A program made the position numbers and the translations under genes. This document shows, in pieces, positions 2,465 to 10,961 of a stretch of DNA of 10,961 bases. The DNA comes from Desulfobacteraceae bacterium. GTDB taxonomy: Bacteria > Desulfobacterota > Desulfobacteria > Desulfobacterales > ETH-SRB1. The notes beneath the pieces are model-generated. The model did no database searches and was not told the DNA's origin. It saw only the letters and a list, made by a program, of their open reading frames with translations. The stretch covers positions 1-10,961 of the forward strand of contig DAOWEW010000054.1 of the NCBI GenBank assembly GCA_030638305.1, in the 5' to 3' direction. How positions within the stretch are numbered: position 1 is the stretch's first letter; each line of letters begins with the position of its first letter.

Positions 2465-2491
2465 GGAATCAAAAATAAATAACCTTTACAC
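2465..2491 (+). repeat. IS left terminal inverted repeat
   Basis: Starts GGAATCAAAAATAAATAACC. It pairs with the reverse complement of 3751-3777, with mismatches at positions 3, 7 and 27 of the repeat. Confidence 0.85.
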
Positions 2492-2520
2492 TTATCAGTA
2501 GTTCTGGTATACATAGTGGC

Positions 2521-3756
2521 ATGTTGGAATTACCTGAGAATGCCAGAGCTATCAAAGAAGAGTTTGAAGATATTGCATACTCATTAAATGAACGCCAAAT
2601 TCGCTTATGGTGCGCGGCCAAAGCTTGATCTTATAATAGAATATGTGGTAGGGGCGGCGTCATGGCTGTTCATAAAGCAACACATATTTCTCGACCGAGA
2701 ATTTATCTTGGTTTAAAAGAAATAAAAAGTAAAGAAAATTTAGAAAAAAGTCGCGTTAGAAAAGCAGGGGGAGGACGTAAAAAGGTTACGGAAAAGCAGG
2801 CAGGCATATTAGAAGATTTAGAACTGTTAGTAGAACCGTTGACTAGGGGAGACCCGGAATCACCTCTTCGCTGGACTTGCAAGAGTACATATAATCTTCG
2901 TGATGAGCTTATTGATCAGGGGTATACAATCAGCCAGCCCAAAGTCGGCAATTTATTATCGGATTTGGGTTATAGTTTACAATCAAACAAAAAAACTAGA
3001 GAAGGCAACGGCCACCCTGACAGAAACGCGCAATTTGAACATATTAATGAAACTGTAAAAATATTTCAGAAATCCGGTTGGCCGGCTGTTTCTGTTGACA
3101 CAAAGAAAAAAGAGAATATTGGAAATTACGCTAATAAAGGCAGGGAATATAGCAAAAAAGGCCAGCCCGAAGAGGTGGAAGCCTATGATTTTATAGATAA
3201 AGAGCTAGGCAAAGTAGCTCCTTATGGCATATATGATCTTTTTAGAAATGAAGGTTTTGTCAATGTTGGAATCAGCAAAGATACTGCGGAATTTGCGGTC
3301 AACTCAATAAAAACTTGGTGGCATGAAATGGGAAAGATTAAATATCCCCATGCCAGGGAATTGCTGATTACTGCGGATTGTGGTGGCAGCAATGGCTATA
3401 GAGTCAAGCTATGGAAGGTTGAGTTGCAAAAATTTGCGAATGAAACCGGAATGCTCATAACCGTTTGTCATTTTCCACCAGGGACAAGTAAATGGAATAA
3501 AATTGAGCATAAAATGTTTTCTTTTATATCAAAAAACTGGCGGGGAAAACCTTTAATAACAAGGGAAACGGTTGTTAACCTGATTGGTAGCACAAAAACT
3601 AAAAGCGGGTTAAAAATAAAAGTAAAGCTTGATGAGAATATTTATAAAACAGGCAGAAAGATAACTGACAAAGAATTTAAAAAAATCAACATACAACAGT
3701 CGGATTTTCACGGTGAATGGAACTATAAAATCAAACCAACAGTTGATATAATGTAA
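2521..3756 (+). pseudogene. ISAzo13-family transposase with an in-frame TGA at codon 36
   Basis: The DDE transposase frame runs from ATG 2521 to TAA 3754-3756 (411 codons) and is interrupted by TGA at 2626-2628. The 35 codons before the stop (ending LNERQIRLWCAAKA) and the sequence after it (GRGGVMAVHKATHISRP) both fit the N-terminal helix-turn-helix region of this family, so the TGA looks like a point mutation, not a gene boundary. Translation could restart at ATG 2662, giving 364 aa that begin inside the DNA-binding domain. The catalytic core is preserved: SVDTKKK (Asp146 of the 364-aa product), ITADCGGSNG (Asp239) and TSKWNKIEHKMFS (Glu282), together with the family hallmark RWTCKSTYNLRDEL. 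The shortened protein keeps catalysis but may lose terminal-repeat recognition. Family assignment is firm; whether the element is still mobile is unclear. Confidence 0.85.
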
Positions 3757-3777
3757 AGGTTATTTATTTTCGATCCC
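3751..3777 (-). repeat. IS right terminal inverted repeat
   Basis: On the minus strand it reads GGGATCGAAAATAAATAACC at its outer end. It includes the transposase stop codon (3754-3756). The adjacent TAA 3778-3780 is the right copy of the target duplication. Confidence 0.85.
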
Positions 3778-3791
3778 TAAGGAGAATAAAG

Positions 3792-4049
3792 ATGGCAAAA
3801 TCAAAAGTAACCAGACCGAAAGCAGCAAGAAACGCATCAAGGACACTCCGAAACAAATCAACTGGATCAACGTCCAAGACTTCAGCCGGCAGCGCTCTAT
3901 CCCAAACAAAGGCGCCAAAAAAAGTGACCTCAAAGAGGGCAGCAAGCGCTGCATCCAAGGTTCTTCGTGATGGTAGAACCAGTAAGAAATCAAAATCGGC
4001 GGCCGGAAGCGCGCTCTCTCAGAGACCATCAAGCAAGAAAAAGAAATAA
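3792..4049 (+). CDS. Small basic protein made of two tandem ~40-residue repeats
   Basis: This 85-aa protein is dominated by Lys, Arg, Ser, Ala and Thr. It consists of two copies of one unit: residues 5-44 (KVTRPKAARNASRTLR... SAGSALSQTKAPK) and 45-84 (KVTSKRAASAASKVLR... AAGSALSQRPSSK). Each copy ends with the shared AGSALSQ motif. Composition and repeat recall small histone-H1-like or nucleoid-binding proteins, so a nucleic-acid-binding role is plausible but unproven. GGAG at 3781-3784 gives a good ribosome binding site 7 bases before the ATG. The IS right end and its target duplication abut that site, so expression now depends on the IS or on read-through. The intact coding frame indicates that either the insertion is recent or the gene is still used. 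Confidence 0.75.
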   Translation: MAKSKVTRPKAARNASRTLRNKSTGSTSKTSAGSALSQTKAPKKVTSKRAASAASKVLRDGRTSKKSKSAAGSALSQRPSSKKKK

Positions 4050-4474: not shown

Positions 4475-4504
4475 TTGACATGATAGAGTAGTATATACTA
4501 TATG
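4475..4504 (+). promoter_or_regulatory. Candidate promoter of abiEi-abiEii
   Basis: A consensus -35 TTGACA lies at 4475-4480. The best-spaced -10 candidates are CTATAT (4498-4503, 17-bp spacer) and TATATG (4499-4504, 18-bp spacer); the better hexamer TATACT (4494-4499) is only 13 bp away. A 12-bp palindrome TAGTATATACTA covers the -10 area. Transcription would start near 4510, inside the inverted repeat at 4504-4534. Confidence 0.55.
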
Positions 4505-4534
4505 CAGTTATTCGACTAATAAACGAATAACTGC
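4504..4534. promoter_or_regulatory. 11-bp perfect inverted repeat upstream of abiEi (autoregulation operator candidate)
   Basis: GCAGTTATTCG (4504-4514) and CGAATAACTGC (4524-4534) form a perfect inverted repeat with a 9-base spacer, ending 14 bases before the abiEi start. Characterised AbiEi antitoxins repress their own promoter by binding inverted repeats through an N-terminal winged helix, and this site overlaps the expected transcription start. Only one copy of the repeat is visible here. Confidence 0.65.
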
Positions 4535-4548
4535 GCATTTAATATACT

Positions 4549-5364
4549 ATGAAACCACTTACAGGCATAGGGAAAATTGATCGAGAAAGAATTGCAGCGA
4601 TAATCCGTGGCACAAAAGGCACAATATCGGTTGATGAGGCTGCCGGGATTTTAGATATTGCATCCACAGATGCCGCAAAAATGCTTTCGCGATGGGCAAA
4701 GAAGGGATGGATGTCACGAGTTCGCCGCGGCCTCTATGTATCTGTGCCCTTAGAATCTCGAACAGCGGACGTGCCGCTTGAAGATCCCTGGCTGATTGCT
4801 GAGCGTCTTTTTGCACCGTGTTATATCGGCGGGTGGAGTGCTGCAGAATATCTGGATTTTACTGAACAAATTTTCAGCACGGTTATGGTTATGACTGTTC
4901 AAAAGCCAAGGGATCGCAGCCCAAAAATAAAAGGAACAGACTTTATGCTGCGCACAGTCGCTGAAAAAGCCATGTTCGGCCTCAAGCCTGTATGGAGGGC
5001 ACAAGTAAAAATTCCAGTATCTGACCCCACGCGTACTATACTTGATATGTTGAGCAATCCTGTTTTTGGCGGTGGAATACGTTCTGTCAAAGATATGTTT
5101 ATCAATTATTTACGTTCAGAAAATAAGAACCTGGAACAGTTAATTGAATATGCACAACAGTTAGGAAATGGCGCTGTATTTAAACGACTTGGCTTTTTAC
5201 TGGAAATAGTTGCCCCTGATGAAACGGAAGCTATAGATAAATGTCGCTTAAAGCTTACAGCAGGTAACACAAAACTTGATCCAAAGCTCAGTAATAACAA
5301 ACTTATTACTCGTTGGCGGCTGTGGGTGCCGGAAAACTGGAAAAGGTTAAAACAAGTTGATTGA
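4549..5364 (+). CDS. abiEi: AbiEi-family antitoxin / transcriptional repressor (type IV TA)
   Basis: This 271-aa protein has the AbiEi architecture. An N-terminal winged helix-turn-helix (residues ~27-68: TISVDEAAGILDIASTDAAK, LSRWAKKGWMSRVRRGLYV) would bind the operator. The following segment PLEDPWLIAERLFAPCYIGG and a basic C-terminal domain are typical of the family. In characterised systems AbiEi both represses the operon and counteracts the AbiEii toxin without stable protein-protein binding, hence type IV. Its length matches family norms and no truncation is seen. The start ATG has no Shine-Dalgarno sequence; TATACT directly precedes it. The 3' end overlaps the abiEii start by 8 bases, giving coupled translation. 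The antitoxin appears intact although the partner toxin gene is interrupted by a MITE. Confidence 0.88.
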   Translation: MKPLTGIGKIDRERIAAIIRGTKGTISVDEAAGILDIASTDAAKMLSRWAKKGWMSRVRRGLYVSVPLESRTADVPLEDPWLIAERLFAPCYIGGWSAAEYLDFTEQIFSTVMVMTVQKPRDRSPKIKGTDFMLRTVAEKAMFGLKPVWRAQVKIPVSDPTRTILDMLSNPVFGGGIRSVKDMFINYLRSENKNLEQLIEYAQQLGNGAVFKRLGFLLEIVAPDETEAIDKCRLKLTAGNTKLDPKLSNNKLITRWRLWVPENWKRLKQVD

Positions 5365-6085
5365 TAAATCTGAAATAATGGATTTCTCAAGAGAGTTTGG
5401 CCTTGTTGCCAATGTCGTTGAGAAAGACTATGTGCTTGGCTGGGTGCTTGCCGGTATATTCAATCACGCTGAAATAGGATCAAGCTGGATATTTAAAGGC
5501 GGTACATGTTTAAAAAAATGCTATTTTGAAACATATCGCTTTTCTGAAGATCTGGATTTCACACTTTCCGAACCAAATCATCTTGATCAGGAGTTTCTCG
5601 TAAATTATTTCAAAGATATTTCGGAATGGGTTTATGATACCGCAGGTATTGATATCCCAAAAAATTTAATCCGCTTTGATGTTTATAAAAACAAGCGTGG
5701 AGGCATGTCTGCCCAAGGACGGATTGGTTACAGCGGTCCAATGCAGCCAAGAGGTGATCTTCCCCGCATTAAGTTGGATTTAACTACAGATGAAATACTT
5801 GTACTTGATTCTGTTGTAAGAAAAGTTCATCATCCGTATTCTGATTTGCTGGATGAAGGAATTCAGATCAGATGTTATTGTTTTGAAGAAGTATTCGCAG
5901 AAAAAGTCAGGGCGCTGGCAGAACGTGAACGTCCGCGTGATTTATATGATGTAGTTCATTTGTATCGTCATGATGGGTTTAAATCTGATCAGACCATTAT
6001 TTTAAGGAACGTGGACGAATTAACTTCCACAAGTAGGCGCACAGATTTGGGTCGAATTTGTTTGATCTCAGATCACAAAAGTTGA
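5357..6085 (+). CDS. abiEii: AbiEii-family nucleotidyltransferase toxin, C-terminus cut off by a MITE
   Basis: The product is the nucleotidyltransferase toxin of the AbiE pair. Signature motifs are GGT (residues 48-50, in WIFKGGTCLKK) and SEDLDF (63-68, with metal-binding Asp65 and Asp67). Further conserved elements are EEVFAEKVRALAER (Lys183) and RPRDLYDVVHLYRH (192-204). Family members transfer nucleotides to tRNA or other acceptors and arrest growth. I place the start at TTG 5357, overlapping abiEi, because residues MIDKSEIMDF fit the family N-terminus; ATG 5378 is an alternative. Native sequence ends at Leu216 (codon 6002-6004). The last 26 residues (RNVDELTSTS...SDHKS) are encoded by the inserted element and end at its TGA (6083-6085). 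The whole catalytic domain remains, so a shortened toxin may still be active; this is inference. Confidence 0.88.
   Translation: MIDKSEIMDFSREFGLVANVVEKDYVLGWVLAGIFNHAEIGSSWIFKGGTCLKKCYFETYRFSEDLDFTLSEPNHLDQEFLVNYFKDISEWVYDTAGIDIPKNLIRFDVYKNKRGGMSAQGRIGYSGPMQPRGDLPRIKLDLTTDEILVLDSVVRKVHHPYSDLLDEGIQIRCYCFEEVFAEKVRALAERERPRDLYDVVHLYRHDGFKSDQTIILRNVDELTSTSRRTDLGRICLISDHKS
6006..6030 (+). repeat. MITE left terminal inverted repeat
   Basis: 25 bp, matching the reverse complement of 6161-6185 at 23 positions. The outermost GGAACGTGGACGAA is identical in both ends. Confidence 0.88.
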
Positions 6086-6160
6086 TGGAATAGCGAGCTA
6101 TTTCAATATTTTTGGGATTTGAGATCGAACAAAGGCGGCCTGAAGCTGTGATGCATAGTT

Positions 6161-6185
6161 GAGGAAGTTATTTCGTCCACGTTCC
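6161..6185 (-). repeat. MITE right terminal inverted repeat
   Basis: 25 bp, partner of 6006-6030. It is followed by TAA (6186-6188), the right copy of the target duplication. Confidence 0.88.
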
Positions 6186-6220
6186 TAAGCACGCTTGAGA
6201 AAAAATGCGAATTTAAAGAA

Positions 6221-6958
6221 ATGCCAGTTCCAATAATGGAAACATTCAGGAACCGTCCTGAACGCGAAGAACTGGAAGCTGAATGGAAAAATATGCTCGC
6301 CCATCAGTTGCCTGCTCTACCACCTTTTGCACAGTTCTGGAAAGAACTTCCGGAAGTAATGGAATGGTTGCATGGTACAGTTGAAAAAACTGTAAAACAA
6401 TCAATTCATTCTGGACGAGTAGCAATTGATGAGACATGGCAACCTCCTTCAATGGCTCAGGCCTGGCATACAGAAACGCCGCTTGAAAAAATCCGTTTTG
6501 CATCAGCAAACAGACTTTGTGTTAATCTTCATTATAATGGCAATTATCGCCTGATAGAGCTATATTCATTACGTCGCTCTCAAGCAGGAAATCTTCTGTT
6601 GTTCGCTTTAAGGCATGAAACAGAAGAATGGCGATCATATCGTGTTGATAGAATTCAAGATGCAGAAGTCACGAATACTTCTTTTGTTCCAAAATATGCT
6701 GTTGAACTTACGCCATCTGGTCCAATTTCTGCCCCAGGATTAACTCGTAATTCCGGCAGGATTTCTTTTTCCAGGCCGACTGTTAGACGTTCACGATCTA
6801 TCAAACCAAACTTTGGGCCGACATATGTTATAGAATGTTCATATTGTGGTAAAAAATTTAATCATAAGAAAATGAATACCCGTTTGAATAAACACAAGGA
6901 TAAAAATGGATATCCATGTTCAGGAAGAAATGGATATCTGGTTGATACAACATATTAG
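6221..6958 (+). CDS. Detached C-terminal part of the AbiEii toxin: WYL-like domain plus zinc finger
   Basis: This frame is the displaced 3' half of abiEii. The native sequence really resumes at 6189 (STLEKKCEFKE), and the ATG at 6221 is only the first internal Met. Residues ~12-52 are helical (NRPEREELEAEWKNML, FWKELPEVMEWLHG). Residues ~88-162 resemble a WYL domain (LEKIRFASANRLCVNLHY, RLIELYSLRRS, RSYRVDRIQDAEV), a fold that binds ligands or nucleic acids in many phage-defence regulators. A C-terminal zinc-finger-like motif has C206-x2-C209, His225 and Cys233 (YVIECSYCGKKF...HKDKNGYPC). With the MITE removed the toxin would be about 472 aa: nucleotidyltransferase, helical linker, WYL-like domain, zinc finger. 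No ribosome binding site is visible at 6221, so the fragment may not be translated. Confidence 0.75.
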   Translation: MPVPIMETFRNRPEREELEAEWKNMLAHQLPALPPFAQFWKELPEVMEWLHGTVEKTVKQSIHSGRVAIDETWQPPSMAQAWHTETPLEKIRFASANRLCVNLHYNGNYRLIELYSLRRSQAGNLLLFALRHETEEWRSYRVDRIQDAEVTNTSFVPKYAVELTPSGPISAPGLTRNSGRISFSRPTVRRSRSIKPNFGPTYVIECSYCGKKFNHKKMNTRLNKHKDKNGYPCSGRNGYLVDTTY

Positions 6959-7056: not shown

Positions 7057-7146
7057 ATGACACATAATTATTCAAAACCAATTCGTAAAAAGCTACGGGA
7101 GCTGGCTGGTCTTGCAGCAACATCTGGGCAAAAACGCCCCGAATGA
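7057..7146 (+). pseudogene. N-terminal scrap of a small conserved protein
   Basis: The frame ATG 7057 to TGA 7146 encodes 29 residues starting MTHNYSKPIRKKLRELAGLA and then losing plausible character (ATSGQKRPE). The first 20 residues match my recollection of a family of ~65-residue proteins that begin 'NYSKPIRKKLRELAGLAYERELSK' and occur near toxin-antitoxin genes. I cannot verify this. The junction would lie at about 7116, where the frame abuts the NifV-like reading frame. TAGGAG (7031-7036) is too far from the ATG (20 bases) for a good ribosome binding site. Confidence 0.4.
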
Positions 7147-8182
7147 TATCACGGCCATCGGAAACCTCGACATCCTCCGCCATAATTCTACTGCCTTTGC
7201 CCAAAAAGAATTTAAGGAACTGCTCGTTTTTGCCGGATTGGCCAGAAAACTCGCAGGATGTCCGAAACTTGCCCTGTGGTGCCGGTGCCTTCCCAAAGAC
7301 ATTGAAGAAACGTTGGGCATGTCGCCTGATGTTCTTGCACTTTCTATTCCTGTTTCAGACATTCATATAGAGCATAAACTGGGTCAGGATAGAAGATGGG
7401 TAATGACGAAAGTACGGGAAAGTATACGGCAGGCGCGAGACAAAAGTTCCTGTTATCTTTCCCTTGGTCTGGAAGATGCCTCCAGGGCTGATCCGGATTT
7501 TGTTGACGAGGTCTGCCTTCTGGCCGTAGCAGAAGGCATAAACAGAATACGTTTTGCAGATACCGTCGGAATCATGGATCCAGTCTCCATGTTCAGGATT
7601 GTTACGAAATTAAGAAAACGATTCAGCGTTGATCTCGGGGTCCACACACACAATGACTTCGGCATGGCTACGGCCAATGCGGTGGCCGCATTGAAAGCCG
7701 GAGCCGATTTTGCGGATGTCACGGTAAACGGACTGGGAGAACGGGCGGGAAATGCTGTCCTGGAAGAAGTGGTGGCCTTTCTGGTCAAAAGGAGTAGTCT
7801 GCCTCAGTACAAACTCAAATATCTCCCTCAGATCGCTCACTATGTGGCACAAGCTGCTCGTATTCCGCTTTCCCATAGAAGCCCTGTGGTTGGAGAGGAT
7901 ATCTTTACATGCGAATCGGGAATCCACATAGATGGAATAATAAAAAATCCTTCCAATTATAAACCATTCGATCCTGCGGAGGTATCTATGCGGAGAAAAT
8001 TCCTTATCGGCAAGAAGACGGGAAAAAGTGCGCTGCGTTACAAGCTCAGGAGTCTGAAGACAAATACAGAAGACAGAGTTCTGGAAGAACTCTTAATGAA
8101 GGTCAAAATCGAATCATCGCGACTAAAAACGAGTTTTAGCGACGAAGAGCTGTTGCGTTGCGCAAGCATGCTTTCCCTATAG
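7112..8182 (+). CDS. NifV-type homocitrate synthase, 5'-truncated (probably non-functional)
   Basis: From about residue 50 the product is clearly a member of the DRE-TIM metallolyase family (homocitrate, isopropylmalate or citramalate synthase), closest in feel to NifV. It has ALWCRCLPKDIEE, SLGLEDASRADPDFV, IRFADTVGIMDP, the metal-binding HTHNDFGMATAN (His178, His180) and VNGLGERAGNA (Asn206). A C-terminal lid segment FTCESGIHIDGIIKNPSNY and IGKKTGKSAL follows. These enzymes condense acetyl-CoA with a 2-oxo acid; in NifV the product homocitrate is a ligand of nitrogenase FeMo-co. The N-terminal strand DTTLRDGEQ, which supplies a metal-binding Asp and the catalytic Arg, is absent, as is the following ~40-residue EIEVG...MG region. 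The first ~30 residues here do not look homologous. The TTG start at 7112 is only the best formal start. No nif genes are nearby. The remaining frame is undamaged, so the truncation is probably recent. Confidence 0.8.
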   Translation: MQQHLGKNAPNDITAIGNLDILRHNSTAFAQKEFKELLVFAGLARKLAGCPKLALWCRCLPKDIEETLGMSPDVLALSIPVSDIHIEHKLGQDRRWVMTKVRESIRQARDKSSCYLSLGLEDASRADPDFVDEVCLLAVAEGINRIRFADTVGIMDPVSMFRIVTKLRKRFSVDLGVHTHNDFGMATANAVAALKAGADFADVTVNGLGERAGNAVLEEVVAFLVKRSSLPQYKLKYLPQIAHYVAQAARIPLSHRSPVVGEDIFTCESGIHIDGIIKNPSNYKPFDPAEVSMRRKFLIGKKTGKSALRYKLRSLKTNTEDRVLEELLMKVKIESSRLKTSFSDEELLRCASMLSL

Positions 8183-9103: not shown

Positions 9104-9289
9104 TCACCTCCTTTTAATCCTCTTCCTCTGTCCCGAACAAACCGGGCAGAAGAAATCTTCCCAAAATTCCGTTTTACCGTACATTGGACACGGTTCAGCA
9201 ACAGAAACGGTAAGAGGGAAAAGACTGAAAATCCTCAATACCGTTAATCTGAAATCTGTAATACGATCTTTCATCTGATTTTCCGCCAT
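9104..9289 (-). CDS. 61-aa Cys-containing small protein in activase operon
   Basis: Not recognised. The product starts MAENQMKDRITDFRLTVLRI, has a moderately hydrophobic stretch (LRIFSLFPLTVSVA, ~18-31) and then a Cys-rich tail: EPCPMYGKTEF followed by EDFFCPVCSGQRKR. Two CP motifs 13 residues apart suggest a small zinc ribbon or redox/metal site, but only three Cys are present (C34, C48, C51). GAGAAGG lies 8 bases upstream of the ATG. The gene begins 45 bases after the activase stop and its TGA (9104-9106) falls within the ribosome binding site of the next mini-gene, so it looks like a genuine operon member. The hydrophobic stretch is too short for a confident membrane segment. Confidence 0.55.
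   Translation of the reverse strand: MAENQMKDRITDFRLTVLRIFSLFPLTVSVAEPCPMYGKTEFWEDFFCPVCSGQRKRIKRR
9105..9115 (-). promoter_or_regulatory. Strong Shine-Dalgarno overlapping the preceding stop codon
   Basis: The complement reads AAAAGGAGGTGA, with the final TGA serving as the stop of the 61-aa gene. The overlap decides the start of the 32-codon gene at 9098 and suggests that ribosomes terminating at the first gene reinitiate on the second. Confidence 0.7.
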
Positions 9290-9334: not shown

Positions 9335-10961
9335 TTATTTCCGTATAAGATTACTTGCTTTTTTCCACAAATTCAGACCTGATATCCATGCCTTTCCTTT
9401 CTCGATTTCAGGCGATACATAGTTGTCAAAGACAGGTATATCTCCCGGCCAAATGCGGAAGCCGGAAAATGGCCAGGCTGTTGCATGTACAGGCATTGCT
9501 TCGGGGCCATGCTCCATCTCTTCTCTGGCAGCAACGATCATGAAATGCAGCCTGTTTAAGATATTTACCTCGCTTGCTCCTGCATCCATATCAAGCGAAA
9601 GCAGGTTCAGATGTGGAAACATTTCTTTGAGTTTTTTCTCCATACCTCTTCCGGTAATATGATTTGAAATGCAACCGAATGGTTGAAGGCAGACTATATT
9701 GCCGATCCCTTCATTGAGCATGGCAATCATCTCGGCAGTCAAAAGCCATCCTTCGCCGAACTGGTTGGCCAGGCTGACCACCTCTCCCGTAATTTCAGCC
9801 AGATCTTTCAGGTTAAAAGGCTTTCTGTAAAAACGAAATTGCTGCATGACCCTTTCTATCTGATAAAGATGATATCTTGTATAAAGATACATGAGTTTAT
9901 ATTTAAGGCTGTCAACAATGGAATTCTTAAAAAAGGAACTTTGAGCAAAATCTTCATTAACAAACTTCTGGGCAAAAAAGTTCTGCAAACAGGGAAGCAC
10001 TACCTCCACCCCCTGATCAGAGAGCCAGTCTATAATGTTTCCATTGGAAAAAAAGTTGTATTTTACAAATATTTCGCCCACCACTCCTATTCTGGGAACA
10101 GGCACTTCTGAGACTTTAACGTCATTAAAATCTGTTACGGCCTTTTCCAGCAGGTTAAGAAGGTAATGATAATCCGCTCTTTCAATACCTGTTTCCATTT
10201 CCGAAAGATATTTGGCGTGCAAGGCCTTTGAGTCGCCTCGACTCTCCTCCCTTACCACCGTGGTTAGATACATCTGAGTCAAAGGATCAGTGAAAATTAC
10301 ACCCAGAGCCATTCGTTTGATCAATTCCTTTTTATCGATAATAAATCCAGGCTGAGGATTGATATCTTCATTAGATATGGCAATTACAGGAATATCCTCC
10401 AGCCCCGCATCAGTCAGTCCTTTCCTGATAAGCGAAACATAAGATGACGCCCGGCACTGGCCGCCGGTCTGAGTTAAGATTATTGATGTCTTTTTCGGAT
10501 CATACCTGCCGGATTGGAATGCCTTGATTATATCTCCTGCAATAAGAACCGCCGGATAGCACATATCATTATTGATATTCTTAAGGCCTAATTCTACAGA
10601 TGCCTTATCCTGCGGCGGAAGTACATCCAGCTTATAACCCAGCGGCTTAAATACAGCAGGAAGAAGCGGAGAATAAAAGGGAGAAAAATAAGGAGCAATA
10701 AGGGTTCTTTCTCTATCTTCCGGCATGAAGACAGGATTTGTTTTCTTTTTCCTTCCTTTTGTGTACAGAGTTCTGCCCGCATTTTCTTTCACTGCTTCCA
10801 GCATGGAACGTAGTCTGATCCTGACCGCGCCCAGATTGGATATTTCGTCCATCTTGATTGACGTGTACATTTTTCCGGAAGTCCTGAGGATTTCTCTTAC
10901 TTCATCGGCAGATACAGCATCAAGGCCACAGCCGAAAGAAGTAAGATGGACCAGTTCTGCC
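9335..10961 (-). CDS. 2-hydroxyacyl-CoA dehydratase-type large activase, C-terminal part (5' end outside window)
   Basis: The frame is open to the window edge; the ATG at 10870 is internal, because the 30 codons before it ([20 protein letters not shown]) continue a conserved motif. About 541 C-terminal residues are visible of a protein that is usually ~1000-1450 aa: one or two BadF/BcrA-type ATPase activase domains, DUF2229, and a C-terminal HGD-D-like region. Visible conserved segments are [64 protein letters not shown] and [20 protein letters not shown], then [20 protein letters not shown]. The Cys residues in CYP, GGQC and FGC are probable iron-sulfur ligands. Such proteins use ATP to drive electron transfer into (R)-2-hydroxyacyl-CoA dehydratase or benzoyl-CoA reductase-type enzymes; large fused forms are common in anaerobes, with the physiological substrate often unknown. 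Two small genes follow in the same operon. Confidence 0.88.

Follow-up and report, generated by a model that had tools for sequence, protein, structure and literature searches.

A 180-bp MITE interrupts the toxin gene of an antiphage AbiE (type IV) toxin-antitoxin operon in the DNA analysed here, a stretch of 10,961 nucleotides (the window) at positions 1–10,961 of contig DAOWEW010000054.1 of a Desulfobacteraceae bacterium. We consider it very likely that this is a non-autonomous element that was moved by an ISAzo13-family transposase and inserted recently, and that the toxin gene lost its function as a result. The features of the operon and of the element are as follows.

4489–4549, no strand assigned: 26-nt inverted repeat just 5′ of abiEi, a candidate autoregulatory operator (repeat search).
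4549–5364, plus strand: intact AbiEi antitoxin gene, 271 aa, overlapping the toxin start (PADLOC AbiEi, 1.4e-115, nearly the whole profile; Pfam AbiEi_4).
5357–6004, plus strand: 5′ piece of AbiEii, 216 codons, TTG start as listed (Pfam AbiEii, 1.5e-35; PDLC02317 positions 1–217).
6003–6005, plus strand: TAA target duplication, left copy (flank comparison; single TAA in the uninterrupted homologue L113).
6006–6185, no strand assigned: MITE, 180 bp, a hairpin over its whole length (terminal repeats, fold, target duplication and a family consensus that is also 180 bp).
6006–6030, plus strand: left terminal repeat, GGAACGTGGACGAATTAACTTCC... (repeat search; ISAzo13-type tip by PWM).
6083–6085, plus strand: first in-frame stop (TGA) within the MITE (translation from the toxin start).
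6161–6185, minus strand: right terminal repeat (repeat search; 28/30 identical to the ISAzo13 tip of locus L217).
6186–6188, plus strand: TAA target duplication, right copy (flank comparison).
6188–6958, plus strand: 3′ piece of AbiEii, 256 codons and stop (PDLC02317 positions 218–395; WYL, 1.7e-05).

The initial annotation described 25-bp terminal repeats with 23 matches, a TAA duplication, and an addition of exactly 61 codons containing two TGA codons. All of this is confirmed: left and right repeats are identical at 23/25 positions, element and duplication together add 183 nt to the toxin frame, and translation read on from the toxin start meets both TGA codons within the element. The repeat search returns arms of 34 nt that are 88% complementary, and the self-complementarity extends beyond the terminal repeats over the whole length of the element, which alone folds with 77 pairs and together with flanking bases reaches −107.5 kcal/mol (z = −16.4 against 200 dinucleotide shuffles). 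Below 600 bp, free of a transposase gene, and bounded by terminal repeats and a target duplication, the element has the make-up of a MITE, and it has multiple near-identical dispersed copies. Stops close all six frames, in this copy and in the family consensus alike, which rules the element out as a supplier of coding sequence. Coding palindromic elements of the RPE type are translated in frame as a peptide insert; that identity is ruled out by the two in-frame TGA codons and the closed consensus. Preservation of the toxin frame turns out not to be special to the abiEii site. Every 180-bp copy keeps frame because together with its duplication it adds 180 + 3 bp, a number divisible by three, and selection for an exact 61-codon insert is ruled out, the length being a property of the family.

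Excision on paper had been said to restore a perfect frame, and homologues of the toxin uphold this. When proteins were searched with an intact homologue, 7,932 of 8,000 scored candidates passed 1e-20, and in all of the best 120 of these the places that correspond to the end of the 5′ piece (...DQTIIL in the window) and the beginning of the 3′ piece (STLEKK) adjoin with zero residues between them. Scanned separately, the two pieces also adjoin on one 396-position PADLOC AbiEii profile (PDLC02317), and neither has an internal stop. Continuous sequence across 6005/6189 is found among the locus homologues as well: seven of the nine that match both pieces are contiguous at the junction in local alignments (L110–L116), while the alignment of L117 ends 11 residues before that point and L118 carries an internal deletion on the upstream side. 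The site in L113 reads TTTTAAGCAC, with a single TAA in place of the window's TAA-element-TAA; a TAA is present at the corresponding site in L110 and L115 too, and absent in L111, L112 and L114.

The initial annotation further saw here a clean natural before/after pair, which stands only as a comparison across species. The nearest homologue by the 5′ piece among the best 120, P0022, is 90.3% identical over the 5′ piece and 93.8% over the 3′ piece. Of 11 genomes tested, G005 (JAFDFV) is the nearest to the window, with 89% amino-acid identity for the 9335–10870 gene. One of its contigs holds the window's flanking genes (9335–10870, 88.7% nucleotide identity; 7112–8182, 78.5%) without the AbiE locus. 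A search of that contig for AbiEi or either toxin piece gave no protein match and a single 18-nt DNA match, and the sole match to the AbiEii profile in G005 is weak (5.1e-19) and on another contig. A 163-bp stretch of the window (9111–9273) is also absent from this otherwise 89% identical contig (L139).

The initial annotation asked for further copies of the element, and in other Desulfobacterota MAGs these are abundant. The exact tip pattern occurs in at least 109 stretches of a one-genome-per-species collection; these 109 all come from deltaproteobacterial or desulfobacterial MAGs, 64 of them from JABZFQ. Copies up to 98% identical are present in 11/11 genomes reached via tip-bearing loci. 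The exact tip was found in 26/389 sampled genomes of the class, with 822 matches in G001 (3.5 Mb), 183 in G003, 86 in G007, 70 in G002 and 58 in G005, and the reversed control pattern gave 0 in every row shown. Chance is not an explanation for the MITE, since all 11 genomes hold copies and tips reach 822 against 0 for the control. Searches for the element in plasmids and phages (blastn) and for the exact tip pattern in viral contigs gave no match.

The 109 loci contain 330 tips when up to 4 mismatches are allowed. These form 108 inward pairs 60–3500 bp apart with identical 3-nt flanks, nested combinations counted. TTA flanks 62 of these pairs and TAA 42; by length, 37 pairs span exactly 180 bp and 14 span 181. 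Counting each left tip once gives 93 copies of 150–230 bp; identical 3-nt flanks surround 71 of them (42 TTA, 27 TAA and 2 ATA), and 37 of the 71 measure exactly 180 bp. Set against a consensus built from 79 aligned copies, the one in the window shows 4 differing positions (median 11, minimum 1) and is therefore probably young. Miniature relatives with the same tips occur at 67–69 and 101–107 bp in the 109 loci and at about 120 bp in L172, L185 and L186. Genome G093, a single contig of 4.07 Mb, has 180-bp copies with TTA, and G174 has copies of about 120 bp. In L180 (G093) one ORF (GNRVVKQNNQDYDSPW...), which presumably resembles Rpn/YhgA-type PD-(D/E)XK proteins, occurs repeatedly in alternation with several 180-bp copies; the arrangement suggests tandem duplication of MITE plus gene. 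In several loci the contig ends some 200 bases or less from a tip, which suggests that the repeats break up such assemblies.

Members of the family are clearly depleted from coding sequence. Only 5 of the 71 copies with duplicated flanks are entered by an ORF having at least 100 codons outside the element, each such ORF ending 15–37 bases inside it. By a similar test, 12,166/20,000 random positions in the same loci (61%) fall inside such an ORF; one MAG supplied most of these loci, and ORFs rather than curated genes were used, so the ratio is rough. The abiEii copy, deep inside its gene, is an exception within a mostly intergenic family.

The window also contains an insertion sequence upstream of the operon, whose features are these.

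2465–3777, plus strand: ISAzo13-family insertion sequence with TAA duplication (NF033519, 9.5e-166; PF07592, 6.7e-141).
2662–3756, plus strand: its transposase ORF, from the ATG at 2662, without the first 27 profile positions (profile match starts at 28).

Its tips share GG at positions 1–2 and AAATAAC at 13–19 with the right tip of the MITE. The N-terminus of its transposase looks interrupted, and as a source of transposase for the MITE it is a possible candidate. Two other stretches of the window were noted in passing, an 85-aa Lys/Ser/Ala-rich basic ORF at 3792–4046 without an NCBIfam match, and, on the minus strand at 199–2045, an IrrE-like peptidase gene next to an ORF that is weakly sigma-70-like (below cut-off).

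Tips of the ISAzo13 family were collected from loci drawn from the class, in which 81/291 genomes have a match. The terminal-repeat search required identical 3-nt flanks and imposed no letters on the repeats or the duplication. In our judgement 9/30 ISAzo13 loci gave convincing pairs (L194, L196, L197, L198, L202, L209, L210, L211 and L214), all with TAA or TTA flanks and mostly with GG...AAATAA-type tips such as GGAATGAGCACGAAATAA and GGAATGAGTTTTAAATAACTTCCCCA. Pairs that scored about as well but were bounded by other trinucleotides came from L193 (TTT), L205 (GAT) and L207 (AGA), each at 18/24, and from L191 and L200 at 17; the pairs in these named loci are taken as chance, and the rest of the 30 gave weak pairs or none. 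A narrower repeat search, from which 13 short loci were excluded, added further copies of the elements of G110 and G248 with TTA (L251) and TAA (L252) flanks; the exceptions are L227 (G248 element), with TAT flanks, and L225 (G110 element), without a clean duplication.

From 22 tips of 11 ISAzo13 elements (the convincing pairs, the window element and L141) we built a PWM, leaving the MITE out; our own selection of the convincing pairs is a possible bias of this matrix. Scanned with this matrix, the 109 loci and the window together offer 1,455,294 positions, and 283 of them score at least 18. MITE tips (at least 19/26 letters) account for 276 of the 283, and two of the other seven belong to the window insertion sequence, itself in the training set. 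None of 100,000 shuffles of the tip reaches the score of the MITE tip. Left-out ISAzo13 tips score 5.8–25.3 and MITE tips 18.3–22.5, which by this measure puts the MITE well inside the ISAzo13 range. As judged from the PWM scan and the 11 elements, then, the MITE has both the target duplication and the tip pattern of an ISAzo13 derivative.

A partner candidate lies at L217:1200–2791, in genome G082 of the same family as G003. There a TAA-flanked tip, GGAACGTGGACGAAATAACTTCCCCAACT, is followed 64 bases on by ISAzo13 transposase frames (NF033519 N-terminal part 7.1e-29, main part 1.1e-108). The tip is identical to the right tip of the MITE consensus at 29/30 positions and to the tips of the window copy at 26/30 and 28/30. 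Since the next 30 bases match the MITE at only 6–7 positions, the MITE appears to share only its ends with this element. The transposase is split into two overlapping frames, for which damage, error or frameshift expression are alike possible. We recognised no right end, and the contig stops 173 bases past the transposase. Relatives of this transposase are present in 28/389 genomes (E ≤ 1e-60), and among the best repeat pairs around them no MITE tip was seen.

The strongest competing explanation, though an improbable one, is that the MITE is ordinary and its mobiliser a different transposase that targets TAA/TTA, for example an IS5/PIF-like enzyme, the likeness to ISAzo13 tips being convergent or borrowed. 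Consistent with it, none of the loci examined showed a complete autonomous ISAzo13 element bearing MITE tips at both ends, and 6/11 carrier MAGs have no ISAzo13 match over cut-off. Against it, the matrix trained on ISAzo13 alone picks MITE tips almost exclusively, and L217 couples an ISAzo13 transposase with a MITE tip. Carrier MAGs with an ISAzo13 match number 6/11 at E ≤ 0.001 and 5/11 over cut-off; the mobiliser is therefore often missing from carriers or unassembled in them. MITE tips occur in 3/10 loci with ISAzo13 fragments from carrier MAGs (L142, L146 and L149), where the L146 pair and one L149 pair are MITE-sized and the other tips unpaired. No recurrent transposase ORF was found inside the unpaired tips of the 109 loci, and no autonomous element was recognised in G093 or G174. 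The ISAzo13 element of G270 was rejected as a partner on account of its different tips (GGAACTGTAATAAAATAAC), though MITE tips occur elsewhere in that genome.

What the insertion does to the toxin differs in one respect from the initial annotation, in which the catalytic domain was spared entirely. All four AbiEii motifs (I–IV, placed by eye) do lie upstream of the cut in the 5′ piece. The predicted structure of an intact homologue, however, matches whole MenT3, MenT4 and JHP933 toxins up to residue 282 (fold relatives among M. tuberculosis and H. pylori structures, by Foldseek and VIA-align), and the cut at 216|217 falls within helix 212–225 of this model, inside the AbiEii/MenT core fold. 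On the model, the last part of the core (to about 282) is lost in addition to the accessory domains. The 3′ piece encodes the rest of the core, a WYL-like domain and a Cys/His-containing tail. The predicted truncated toxin has 242 aa, 216 of them native and 26 from the duplicated base and the MITE. A folded remnant may still form from the 5′ piece, because the minimal nucleotidyltransferases ANT(2″)-Ia and LnuA end near residue 206–229 of the model. As to AbiE membership, the locus has adjacent AbiEi and AbiEii genes and lacks a complete AbiEii nucleotidyltransferase toxin, with the interruption after codon 216 and the modelled core running to about 282. The neighbouring antitoxin is intact, as first annotated. 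AbiEii proteins differ in natural length: longer forms of about 472 aa have the WYL-like domain and Cys/His-containing tail, and the AbiEii frames of L115–L117 end soon after the core (282–294 aa).

Substitution rates were compared with intact homologues, although many dS values are saturated or not estimable. Compared with five intact homologues, the 3′ piece has a dN of 0.14–0.25 (0.16–0.28 among those homologues), and its dN/dS where dS is estimable is 0.08, 0.12 and 0.20 (intact pairs 0.10–0.13); for the 5′ piece the estimable ratios are 0.04–0.11. Because the highest value, 0.20 against L112, exceeds the intact pairs, the 3′ piece may be slightly relaxed and the insertion correspondingly less recent.

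The split gene might instead work as two proteins, the 242-aa remnant and a product from 6221 with the remainder of the core and the WYL-like domain, in a two-part or antitoxin-independent system. We find this improbable as well. An ATG-started ORF of 245 aa does begin at 6221 within the 3′ piece and could be translated, both pieces are open, their dN/dS is low (0.04–0.11 for the 5′ piece and 0.08–0.20 for the 3′ piece), and the end points of the minimal nucleotidyltransferases fit a self-contained 5′ product. But few substitutions are expected since insertion in so young a copy, and the low ratios would thus reflect the past; the cut breaks a helix, and a consensus scan of 5900–6320 finds no promoter-like site. 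That the hairpin is primarily a functional RNA or regulatory element of the operon, or an assembly artefact, rather than transposed DNA is very improbable, for despite its strength and some paired double changes among the copies (12/62 pairs), the target duplication, the uninterrupted homologues and hundreds of copies at other sites contradict it, Rfam has no match at gathering thresholds anywhere in the window, and relatedness of the copies alone can produce the pairing excess. The excess is small, with 84 broken cells where shuffling gives 118 on average and 109 at least, and we do not accept it as proof of selection on RNA. The hairpin may nevertheless have an added regulatory effect.

Loss of the toxin through an ISAzo13-mobilised MITE could have come about as follows. 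An ISAzo13-family DDE transposase acting in trans, which would recognise GGAA(C/T)...AAATAAC-type tips and duplicate TAA/TTA, inserted the MITE into abiEii next to a TAA by a cut-and-paste or replicative event; we infer this mobilisation from the shared ends and target. Translation would stop within the MITE, and the resulting protein of 242 aa would lack the last part of the toxin core. The toxin would then be inactivated twice, by truncation and by a near-perfect 180-nt hairpin in the mRNA, a potential substrate for double-strand RNA cleavage. Such cleavage of the abiEii transcript is suggested because RNase III has been reported to cleave Correia-containing transcripts (PMC10969869, as far as the excerpts of that paper go). 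With the upstream antitoxin gene intact, loss of the toxin would cost the cell little and the copy would be tolerated inside the gene, which would explain its survival at this site in a family that is otherwise largely absent from genes.

Among known elements the closest likeness is to the ISAzo13 family itself (NF033519, PF07592), whose accepted elements have the 3-bp TAA/TTA duplication and GG...AAATAA-type tips of equal spacing; the MITE differs in its 180-bp length, its lack of coding capacity and its lack of likeness to the L217 element beyond about 30 nt. Geobacter uraniireducens, another member of the former Deltaproteobacteria, is host to the MITE Chunjie. By description, in sizes and placement rather than in sequence or parent element, Chunjie resembles the present family: its copies are 178–235 bp and mostly intergenic, and one disrupts a phosphate uptake operon (excerpts of PMC10969869). 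The same excerpts describe Correia elements and ERIC, from unrelated hosts, as many-copy MITEs that are mostly intergenic. MITEs of Ca. Thiomargarita nelsonii, an uncultured host of the sulfur cycle, are likewise abundant and lie in or within metabolic genes (hupL and the dsrA intron); according to the excerpts of PMC4853749 they differ in having 10-bp direct repeats and TATA-type ends rather than TAA, and other parents are discussed for them. The operon itself matches the two-gene abiEi-abiEii arrangement with motifs I–IV (here placed by eye) of the AbiE type IV system, as excerpted from PMC3985639, and departs from it in its extra WYL-like domain and tail and in being interrupted.

Several carriers have been assigned to named lineages: in the excerpts of PMC10553843, JABZFQ, JAJSZO, JAJSZP and JAFDFV are Seep-SRB1a, for which partnership with ANME-2a is described, and MAXM (C00003104 in the table of that paper, C00003106 in its sequence record) is Seep-SRB1g, obligate syntrophic partners of the methane-oxidising archaea ANME. 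A text search of that paper found no word beginning 'transpos'. The exact tip is present in 10/17 sampled genomes of the family of G003 and in 2/4 of that of G007. A link between the MITE family and a syntrophic lifestyle was set aside, as the lifestyle labels cover five named carriers only. More speculatively, and we think it doubtful, the ISAzo13-linked hairpin MITE could have burst separately in the seafloor sulfate reducers Seep-SRB1a and Seep-SRB1g, syntrophic partners of methane-oxidising archaea, up to hundreds of copies in 3.5 Mb, supplying genome-wide mRNA processing sites while rare genic copies prune dispensable defence genes, the present AbiE toxin among them; the processing role is conceivable because most copies are intergenic and would read as 180-nt RNA hairpins.

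Taken alone, the interruption of the toxin is an ordinary loss-of-function event, and it offers a natural example in which a toxin-antitoxin operon has lost the toxin and kept the antitoxin gene. The MITE family comes with a likely mobiliser, and the literature searched, including what was available of PMC9208149, PMC9296519, PMC4853749 and PMC10969869, yielded no link between ISAzo13 and a MITE and no earlier description of this pairing. The more interesting part is the family itself, for its connection to ISAzo13 and for how abundant it is in bacteria that partner ANME.
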